Origin: Nitrospirota bacterium
GTDB lineage: Bacteria > Nitrospirota > Thermodesulfovibrionia > Thermodesulfovibrionales > JdFR-86
Length of the DNA: 33,761 bases
Direction: 5' to 3'
Assembly (NCBI GenBank): GCA_030638335.1
Contig: DAOWET010000283.1
Location: 1-33,761, forward strand
The notes beneath the pieces are model-generated. The model was given only the letters and a program-made list of their open reading frames with translations, did not search any database and was not told where the DNA came from. Every line of letters starts with the position of its first letter. Position 1 is the first letter of the stretch. The translations under genes were made by a program, and so were the position numbers. Positions 16,288 to 20,630 of this stretch are shown piece after piece.

Positions 16288-17061
16288 ATGATGGAACAAA
16301 AGGGCACTACAAAGGACCAGGGAAGTATCAGCAGGAGGGACCTTCTAAGGGGCGCAGGCGCCATCGCAGCTGGTGGAGCCTTTGCGGCAGCCGGGGGTAC
16401 CACGCTTGTGGGCATGGCAGAGGCTTCCAAGCAGGCCGGGGGGGCCATATACCCATGGAAGTACGCGAAGATAGACCCCGACAAGGCAGCAATGGTCGCC
16501 TATAACAACTGGTACAGGAACTTCTGCAGCTATGGCGCTGCAAGCGGCATCATCGTTCCCCAGCGCGAACTGGTTGGCGGGCCATGGAACAGCTTTCCCC
16601 TGATGGCGCTGAAGTTCGGCGAGGGCGGCGTGGAGGGCTGGGGCACGCTCTGCGGGTGCCTGCTTGGCGGAAGCGTTGCAATATCCCTTGCCGCGGGCCA
16701 CGATGGCAAGCCCATGATAAACGACCTCATGCAGTGGTACTCTGAGACCATGCAGCCGGTGTTCAAGCCCAAAAAGCCAAGGGCCAGGTTCAAGAGCAAA
16801 ACAGTGAGCGGCTCCCCGCTCTGTCATATCTCCGTTGGCAAGTGGATGAAGGCAGAGGGCAAGTCCCTTGGCTCAGCCGAGCGCAGGGACCGTTGCGCGC
16901 GCCTTACCGCAAGTGTTTCATACAAGATCGCTACAATGCTCAACGACTGGGCAGACGGCAAGTACAAGCCCTCCTATACCAACAAGCAGTCCGCCGTCGG
17001 CATCACTACGCAGAACAACTGCACTGGCTGCCACGGCTCGGACGTGCCGTCACCCATCTAG
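16288..17061 (+). CDS. Split-Soret-type cytochrome c / C_GCAxxG_C_C-like Tat-exported redox protein
   Basis: Tat signal SRRDLLRGAGAIAAGGAF; CSYGAASGI, TLCGCLLGG, SPLCHISVGKW, C-terminal heme motif CTGCH. Confidence 0.75.
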   Translation: MMEQKGTTKDQGSISRRDLLRGAGAIAAGGAFAAAGGTTLVGMAEASKQAGGAIYPWKYAKIDPDKAAMVAYNNWYRNFCSYGAASGIIVPQRELVGGPWNSFPLMALKFGEGGVEGWGTLCGCLLGGSVAISLAAGHDGKPMINDLMQWYSETMQPVFKPKKPRARFKSKTVSGSPLCHISVGKWMKAEGKSLGSAERRDRCARLTASVSYKIATMLNDWADGKYKPSYTNKQSAVGITTQNNCTGCHGSDVPSPI

Positions 17062-17678: not shown

Positions 17679-18113
17679 CTATCCAGCTTTCGTCCCGGCC
17701 CTCTCAAGCGCCTTGCCAGAGCCGCATACGGTTAAACCTGCCCCGGGCGCGGCCTCTTTTAAATGTATATCGCTTGAGACGATTATCTCCGCCCCATGCG
17801 CCAGAGCGCATGCGATGAACTTGTCGTCTTCAGGGTCGTCTTTAACCCACCGCCCATCAGGCGGGTTTTCATCCAACAAAATATTTTTGCCATCACGAAT
17901 ATCATTAAGAAGGTTTTTCAACTTTTCACCTCTGAAGGAGAACCTTGTAAGGATATTCTCATACTCCCTGAGCACGGCAGGGGTGACGCAGAGAAATATT
18001 ATTCTCTCCGGATAGAAGGGCCCGTGGCCCCGCCAGGCCTCCACAAGCCTGCCAGCGTTTCCCCCAAAGAGCGAGGCAACAAGCACGTTGGTATCAATTA
18101 CGAGTTTTAGCAT
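17679..18113 (-). CDS. PIN-domain protein (COG1569/PIN_3-like)
   Basis: MLKLVIDTNVLVASLFGGNAGRLVEAW; VLREYENIL; DDPEDDKFIACALAHGAEIIVSSDIHL; ggaggt RBS upstream of 18113. Confidence 0.85.
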   Translation of the reverse strand: MLKLVIDTNVLVASLFGGNAGRLVEAWRGHGPFYPERIIFLCVTPAVLREYENILTRFSFRGEKLKNLLNDIRDGKNILLDENPPDGRWVKDDPEDDKFIACALAHGAEIIVSSDIHLKEAAPGAGLTVCGSGKALERAGTKAG

Positions 18114-18181: not shown

Positions 18182-19747
18182 CTAGAGATTGGGCATGAAT
18201 CTCGCGACAAGCGGCAGGGCCCACTCAAGCCCTATGGCCTTTTGCGTCACCTTCGGCCCGGGGGGAGACTGCCTTCTCAGGGCCTCGGCCCCCTGTATGC
18301 GGGCAAGAAGCTCCTCAAGCCCCGCAGGGCCGATCTCCCCTACCTTCATGGCCTCCTCAAACCCCAGATCGTCCTCAATAAGCACCTTCAACGCGGCCTC
18401 CTCGGGGTTTGGCTTCGAGGCCACCTCGATCGCCTCCCTGGGGATGACCTCACCCATGGAGTTCCGCCACGCGGAGAGCCTCAGCACATCAGGCCCCCAG
18501 AGGTCTTTAAGTGGGGCAAACAGTCCTGCTGTCTCAGCATATAAAGTGATCCCGCCCGAGGCAAGGTCGGACTTTGATATTGAGGATATTGGAAGCAGGC
18601 CAAGGGCTACCGATTCATCCATCAACGCAGCGCCAAGCTCCCGCATGCCCGCGCTCATGGACGGGGCCTCCACAGTATTGATCCCAAGCAGCTCCGCGCA
18701 CCCTTTGGCAGAAGGTGCCCACCTGCCATCGGCGATAAGGGCATGCACAGAGGCGCTGCCGATGGAGTCAGCAGCCATGCAGGCCGCAAGGTCGGATGCG
18801 AGCCCCCCGCTCATAACGAGCATCACGCCCTTGTACCCGCCTTTTTCCACAAGGTCGACCAGCGCTGTTGCAAGCGCGGAATAAAGGGCATGCTCAGGCG
18901 CCATCGGCTCTGGTATCTCTCGTTCAGGGATAGTTGGCAGGGGCTTGTCATTAGCAGGCTCTGTCAACTGTATAACGCGGACATCGTCCTTTATCTGCCC
19001 GGCCTCCGCAGAGGTCTCAAGCGGCACGTCCACCACGAGCAGGTCCTCCACGAAGTTCCTTGCGCGCGCGATGGTTTTCCCGTCAGCACCCACAACAAGG
19101 CTTGCGCCCTCGAAGATCAGCTCGTCGCTGGCACCTGCCATGTTCACAAACGCCACAGGCGTGGAGCACCGCGAGGCAAAGCTTGACGCCAGGTGCTCTG
19201 TGTGTCCGGACCGGCCGGAGACATATGGCCAGGCGCTCATATTTATAATTAGCGAGGCCCCGGCGCTGCACTGCCTTTCGGCCGGGCCTTCTAGATACCA
19301 GAGGTCCTCGCGCAGGTTCACGCCGATCAGTTTGTCAGCGAACTTAATAAGACCGAGTTCCGATGCGGTTTGAAAATACCTTGACTCATCAAGTGTGCCA
19401 AGACCTGGCATATGCTTTTTGTGGAAGGCCCCCCTCATCAGCCCGCCGGAGCAGACAGCAGCGGCGTTCGTGGCGGAGCTCTCAAGCAGGGGCAGGCCCA
19501 CAAGCATGGTGATCTCGGGCACGCTCTCCCATACCCGTTTCAGTTCAAGGGAACATGCGTTGAGAAACCCCCTGCTTGCGAGCAGGTCCCTTGGGTGGTA
19601 TCCCGAGAGCGCCAGCTCGGGAAACGCGACAATGCCAGCGCCAAGCGCAGCCGCGTTTCGTGCATAGGCAATAATGCGGTCAGCGTTGCCCCTGACGTCT
19701 CCCACTGTGGGGTTTATCTGCGCAAGCGCTATCCTGATGGAATCCAT
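18182..19747 (-). CDS. nadE: Glutamine-dependent NAD+ synthetase family protein, probable pseudoenzyme
   Basis: Nitrilase domain FPELALSGYHPRDLL, HKKHMPGLGTLDESRYF, but GVNLREDLWYLEGP; synthetase domain VMSGGLASDLAACMA, SKSDLASGGITLYAETAGLFAPLKDL, RRQSPPGPKVTQKAIG. Confidence 0.85.
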   Translation of the reverse strand: MDSIRIALAQINPTVGDVRGNADRIIAYARNAAALGAGIVAFPELALSGYHPRDLLASRGFLNACSLELKRVWESVPEITMLVGLPLLESSATNAAAVCSGGLMRGAFHKKHMPGLGTLDESRYFQTASELGLIKFADKLIGVNLREDLWYLEGPAERQCSAGASLIINMSAWPYVSGRSGHTEHLASSFASRCSTPVAFVNMAGASDELIFEGASLVVGADGKTIARARNFVEDLLVVDVPLETSAEAGQIKDDVRVIQLTEPANDKPLPTIPEREIPEPMAPEHALYSALATALVDLVEKGGYKGVMLVMSGGLASDLAACMAADSIGSASVHALIADGRWAPSAKGCAELLGINTVEAPSMSAGMRELGAALMDESVALGLLPISSISKSDLASGGITLYAETAGLFAPLKDLWGPDVLRLSAWRNSMGEVIPREAIEVASKPNPEEAALKVLIEDDLGFEEAMKVGEIGPAGLEELLARIQGAEALRRQSPPGPKVTQKAIGLEWALPLVARFMPNL

Positions 19748-19844: not shown

Positions 19845-20630
19845 ATGCTTCTGGTGATGGACATAGGCAACTCGGCCATGAAGGCCGGGCTCTTTGGCGC
19901 GGGGGTCTCAGGCAGGGAGCGTGTCCTTGCAAGGACGCGGAGGTTCGACCTCTCCCCCTCCCACCTCCCTCACGAATACGCGGACATGCTAAAGGATTTC
20001 ATTGGGGCTGACAGGCCCGCAAGCGCGGCCATTGCAAGCGTGGTGCCTGAGGCAACCGCAGCCGTGGCAGAGGCGGCAGAGGCCCTTACGGGGACACCGC
20101 CCCTGGTGCTTGACCACGAGACAGACAGCGGGCTTATACTGGACATAGCGCTTCCCGCCTCTGTGGGCGCTGACCGCATAGCAGGTGCGGTGGGAGCTGT
20201 GGAGGCAGTGGGCGCGCCGGTTGCGGTAGTGGATTTCGGTACTGCCACGACAGTGGGCTTTGTGTTCGAGTCAGACGCGCCGGACCAGGCGGTATTCAAG
20301 GGCGGGGCGATAATGCCAGGGCTCTCTCTTATGGGAAGCTCGCTTGCCTCAGGCACTGCAAAGTTGCCTGAGGTGGATTTCCTTGGCACCTTTGACGCCC
20401 TTGGCAGGGATACGGAACAGAACATATTGTCCGGTGTGGTGCTTGGCACGGCCGGCGCGGTGGAGCGAATAGTTGCGGAGGTGGAGCGCGCAGAGGGCGT
20501 CGGGTTTCAGGTAGTGCTCACCGGCGGCATGGCACTGGCGGTGCAGGGCCATATGAGCAGGCCCCCGGCCCTTGTGGAACCCAACCTCACCCTTATTGGC
20601 CTGCGTGCGGTATATGAGAGGAATAATTAA
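19845..20630 (+). CDS. coaX: Type III pantothenate kinase
   Basis: MLLVMDIGNSAMKAGLF; GADRIAGAVGA; VDFGTATTVGFV; GGAIMPGLSLMGSSLASGTAKLP. Confidence 0.92.
   Translation: MLLVMDIGNSAMKAGLFGAGVSGRERVLARTRRFDLSPSHLPHEYADMLKDFIGADRPASAAIASVVPEATAAVAEAAEALTGTPPLVLDHETDSGLILDIALPASVGADRIAGAVGAVEAVGAPVAVVDFGTATTVGFVFESDAPDQAVFKGGAIMPGLSLMGSSLASGTAKLPEVDFLGTFDALGRDTEQNILSGVVLGTAGAVERIVAEVERAEGVGFQVVLTGGMALAVQGHMSRPPALVEPNLTLIGLRAVYERNN

Follow-up and report, generated by a model that had tools for sequence, protein, structure and literature searches.

The window, a 33,761-nucleotide stretch of DNA from a Nitrospirota bacterium (GCA_030638335.1, contig DAOWET010000283.1), contains a minus-strand gene of 521 codons that runs from an ATG at 19747 to a stop at 18182 with no internal stop or frameshift, and that is known from this one metagenome-assembled genome (92.28% complete). 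Its product is a homologue of the fused, glutamine-dependent NAD synthetase NadE. The gene, its two domains and its neighbours are as follows:

18182..19747, minus strand: putative NadE-derived pseudoenzyme gene, a fused glutaminase and synthetase homologue (open frame; PF00795 and PF02540; AlphaFold2; 3n05)
18998..19747, minus strand: glutaminase (nitrilase-fold) domain, residues about 1-250 (PF00795 match to residues 5-249)
18197..18898, minus strand: synthetase (N-type ATP pyrophosphatase) domain, residues about 284-517 (PF02540 match)
17679..18113, minus strand: PIN-domain gene (TIGR00305-like), downstream of the 521-aa gene (synteny with relative G002; TIGR00305)
19845..20630, plus strand: coaX (type III pantothenate kinase), divergent from the 521-aa gene (TIGR00671, 124.8 bits, above the cut-off of 58.2)

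The 521-aa protein has the domain order of a type F NadE, an N-terminal nitrilase-type glutaminase fused to a C-terminal synthetase. Domain E-values of 1.6e-19 for CN_hydrolase (PF00795) and 2.3e-9 for NAD_synthase (PF02540, from residue 290) show that the match to the NadE family is not due to chance, and a preliminary description of this DNA, which held the frame to be intact and family membership clear, is borne out by the open ATG-to-stop reading and the matches to both Pfam domains. Against the NCBIfam fused NAD synthetase model NF010588 the protein scores 306.1 bits, under the curated equivalog cut-off of 479, and its nearest homologues are about 40% identical, with synonymous sites saturated.

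Conservation was assessed in an alignment with 47 other NadE proteins from several phyla (alignment A3), counting a column as highly conserved at 95% or more. The 521-aa protein keeps 87 of the 150 highly conserved cross-phylum columns, against an average of 99% in the other NadE proteins; by domain, the count is 44 of 62 for the glutaminase and 43 of 88 for the synthetase. Likewise, an alignment of 41 NadE proteins of its own order, Thermodesulfovibrionales, has 180 columns conserved at 95% or more, and the protein keeps 93 of these versus 177-180 in intact relatives (two sequences, L029 and L030, are incomplete reads and thus keep fewer). Four motifs carry the following changes:

19310..19312, minus strand: codon 146, nucleophile Cys to Arg (NLREDLW, C146R); Cys in 47/47 relatives
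18797..18799, minus strand: codon 317, PP-loop Asp to Ala (SGGLAS, D317A); Asp in 47/47 relatives
18533..18544, minus strand: codons 402-405, LYGD to LYAE (G404A, D405E); Gly and Asp in 47/47 relatives
18218..18226, minus strand: codons 508-510, C-terminal DRR to EWA (D508E, R510A); Asp and the last Arg in 47/47 relatives

These are the motifs (NLREDLW, SGGLAS, TLYAE and IGLEWALP) that had already been reported as altered, and all four are present as described, with canonical residues in all 47 other proteins. The triad Glu and Lys, said to be retained, are found as Glu44 and Lys110, so that the Cys-Glu-Lys catalytic triad is broken at one position, where Arg replaces Cys146; Glu147 also remains, as do some PP-loop residues (SGG..S). 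Further losses lie outside the motifs listed earlier: Y116L in the YRE loop, S173W, TTGNKSE changed to SSISKSD, and K490L. The glutamine pocket has lost its Tyr and Ser. Five in-frame deletions of about 12, 5, 26, 4 and 11 residues (alignment A3) account for the loss of the P1 region (ESRED), the TEEN helix (a 26-residue stretch ending TEE) and the P2 loop (SAEL...DTDTLPPY), and the synthetase site has neither the PP-loop SGGxDS nor the P1/P2 loops. For the enzymes of M. tuberculosis and human, PMC6946656 describes the catalytic triad (Cys, Glu, Lys), the YRE loop and both the P1 and the P2 loop; we located these elements in the 521-aa protein through our own alignment.

With the nucleophile, glutamine pocket, PP-loop Asp and P1/P2 loops lost, neither reaction can run by the family's known mechanism, and the sequence indicates that the protein has very probably lost NAD synthetase activity. 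The residues lost are essential to catalysis in the family, as expected of a pseudoenzyme, and the earlier view of a pseudoenzyme with both active sites degraded is well supported, the motif loss being even larger than was noted. Sequencing error as a cause was rejected, as about sixty conserved residues are lost and several deletions are in frame within an open frame. It is very improbable that the organism still uses this protein as its NAD synthetase, with a modified active site: although the rest of the assembly yielded no canonical NadE, the genome has nadA and nadD, and the ammonia-type NadE found on contig C90 (described below) may serve sugar synthesis, residues invariant in all 47 relatives have been lost together with the P1/P2 loops. 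Neofunctionalisation, in which new catalytic residues would let the two domains act on, or simply bind, another substrate, would agree with the fold kept in the AlphaFold2 model and with the kept Glu44, Lys110, Glu147 and SGG..S; it is unlikely, since the protein has neither the nucleophile Cys nor the PP-loop Asp nor either of the substrate loops, which makes nitrilase or N-type pyrophosphatase chemistry impossible by the family's known mechanism.

The 521-aa protein is probably still under selection, as judged from its codons, residue composition and predicted fold. Neutral decay of three relatives' genes to 60% identity produced at least one stop in 600 of 600 simulations, and decay until core change equalled that of the 521-aa protein produced 12-14 stops on average. 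Among changed core positions, 54 of 88 (0.61) stay VILMFWC in the 521-aa protein versus 0.41-0.43 under neutral decay, with 0.534 in the highest single neutral run. The synonymous codon score of the gene is 0.141, compared with a genome mean of 0.128 (sd 0.091); neutral synonymous sites would be expected to score -0.113 (sd 0.024). The AlphaFold2 model, built from an input alignment of intact homologues, shows a two-domain fold with high confidence (pLDDT 89.5, pTM 0.90), and since these homologues helped the prediction its confidence is no proof of stability. Among solved structures the closest are glutamine-dependent NAD synthetases, with 3n05 as the best match (TM 0.87). Selection on frame and fold, as expected of a pseudoenzyme, is thereby indicated indirectly, by codon usage, neutral simulations, core hydrophobicity and predicted fold.

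A search of 177 Thermodesulfovibrionales genomes turned up no orthologue carrying these lesions, and searches of genome contigs and viral contigs with peptide patterns found no close relatives. In the tree, the branch of the 521-aa protein is saturated, at about 10 versus a median of 0.28, and its placement within the order is not fixed by the tree; rare shared residues favour no family within the order. This extremely long branch, the several deletions within conserved loops and the lack of a same-lesion orthologue would all fit a decaying pseudogene, in which a redundant nadE is drifting and either chance or the recency of the loss has left its frame open. Such decay is improbable here, as about 60% amino-acid change has left no stop or frameshift, whereas every neutral simulation gave stops, and as codon usage is normal and core hydrophobicity is retained beyond neutral expectation. 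The non-catalytic role suggested in the preliminary description draws indirect support from the signs of selection on frame and fold, and is weakened by the lack of an orthologue with the same lesions. Second copies and short frames in four genomes (G058, G126, G166 and G168) were considered as parallel dead NadE proteins and set aside, all motifs that they cover being canonical. One of these genomes, G058, carries beside its usual copy a second full-length NadE (L207, G058:C45) with canonical glutaminase and PP-loop motifs.

Gene order ties the locus to one relative. In the same-family genome G002, a PIN gene comes after a canonical nadE in the same order and orientation, and the two PIN proteins are 44.5% identical; TIGR00305 scores 25.3 bits on the PIN protein of the window, under the cut-off of 29.15, and 38.2 bits on its G002 counterpart. 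This common nadE-PIN order suggests that the 521-aa gene is the family's nadE in place. The PIN neighbour is common to the 521-aa gene and one of five relatives compared, G002. Divergent coaX was correctly recognised earlier, at a distance given as 98 bp; the measured gap is 97 bp (coaX start at 19845). No coaX was seen beside nadE in the surroundings of the five relatives, so its closeness says little. Elsewhere in the window, 16288-17061 encodes a Split-Soret cytochrome c-like protein whose N-terminus is of the TAT type (170.7 bits with NF047622, under the cut-off of 400).

The same genome carries nadA on contig C211 and nadD on contig C187; it therefore makes deamido-NAD and needs a working synthetase. 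A search for a second canonical NadE, proposed earlier as a check, detected no fused, glutamine-dependent copy elsewhere in the 92.28% complete assembly and did find a divergent ammonia-type one, a 327-aa single-domain protein on contig C90 that is the only candidate synthetase found. It scores 126.6 bits with the equivalog-domain model TIGR00552 (cut-off 63.65). Contamination as the source of C90 is not supported, its tetranucleotide usage fitting this genome. C90-type NadE was absent from the 60 order relatives searched, in which only canonical NadE gave weak matches, and was found in one other of 396 genomes of the phylum, G422, at 64% identity. Both proteins have SEGLDS in place of the canonical PP-loop SGGxDS, and in both genomes a nucleotide-sugar dehydrogenase gene follows, the G422 copy lying within a polysaccharide cluster. 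A literature search on NadE in polysaccharide clusters found nothing. The ammonia-type NadE variant with SEGLDS lies at L034:1414-2397 and L170:9237-10217, in two distant Nitrospirota genomes and each time ahead of a nucleotide-sugar dehydrogenase.

The evidence on the activity of the C90 protein points both ways. The dehydrogenase neighbour and the SEGLDS motif suggest that it may amidate sugars (uronic acids) rather than make NAD. G422 has nadA and nadD with no detected canonical NadE, a pattern that favours the C90 type as a NAD synthetase. The link to NAD synthesis is weak, since it involves two genomes only and since three order members without the C90 type, G001, G044 and G056 (96-99% complete), also have nadA and nadD and no detected NadE of either type. 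Whether the C90 protein is the working NAD synthetase is, on balance, an even call. A canonical nadE may instead lie in the unassembled part of the genome (the missing 8%), with the 521-aa gene as an old paralogue, a reading that leaves room for the 521-aa protein being a pseudoenzyme and competes only with replacement by C90. The assembly is incomplete, the near-complete assemblies of G001, G044 and G056 show that such gaps happen, and one relative, G058, carries two NadE copies. We nonetheless regard an unassembled nadE as rather unlikely, given that searches found one NadE in each of G002-G005, of the same family, and that the 521-aa gene has the nadE-PIN order of the canonical nadE in G002.

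Given the homology of the 521-aa protein, its lost motifs, open frame, ordinary codon usage and predicted fold, and given nadA and nadD elsewhere in the genome, the explanation that we favour, with some reserve, is a folded NadE pseudoenzyme that selection has kept in a binding or regulatory capacity since another synthetase took over the making of NAD. Its origin would be the glutamine-dependent nadE that nearly every member of Thermodesulfovibrionales (Nitrospirota) carries. Both catalyses would have been lost in this lineage, the glutaminase with its nucleophile and glutamine pocket and the synthetase with its PP-loop Asp and P1/P2 loops, while selection would have maintained the open frame and the two-domain fold. 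Its present action would most likely be binding, as a scaffold or regulatory subunit acting through the oligomeric and partner-binding surfaces inherited from NadE. NAD would be made by another synthetase, for which the ammonia-type NadE on C90 is the only candidate seen. The fuller scenario, in which a NAD synthetase turned non-catalytic is still selected (for example as a regulator of nitrogen or NAD state, or as a scaffold) and an ammonia-type NadE from a surface-sugar cluster took over, is put forward tentatively and is doubtful as a whole.

Like type F NadE-Gln enzymes (NF010588/PRK13981; 3n05, 5kha, 4f4h), the 521-aa protein has their domain order, fold, overall sequence and triad Glu and Lys; unlike them, it is without the nucleophile Cys, glutamine pocket, PP-loop Asp and P1/P2 loops. 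Our literature search, with many subscription journals outside its coverage, found no description of a NAD synthetase pseudoenzyme. Pseudoenzymes as a kind are already known, and what would be new here is one from the NadE family, seen in a single genome. Francisella NMN synthetase (NadE*) is a single-domain NadE homologue that shifted from NAD synthetase activity and is active on a changed substrate (PMC3376133); the 521-aa protein resembles it as a NadE homologue that would have left NAD synthetase activity and differs in having lost the catalytic apparatus. If the proposed explanation is true, a core cofactor enzyme has been replaced by a non-orthologous relative, and the existence of a dead but folded fused NadE would mean that the protein can be worth keeping for non-catalytic reasons. 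In other bacteria, PII-regulated NadE-Gln is an active fused enzyme that binds PII (PMC7196632), which shows that regulatory protein-protein contacts are possible for a fused NadE; the 521-aa protein, if dead but still folded, would direct attention to surfaces of the active enzyme that serve purposes other than catalysis, for instance its oligomer or PII contacts.
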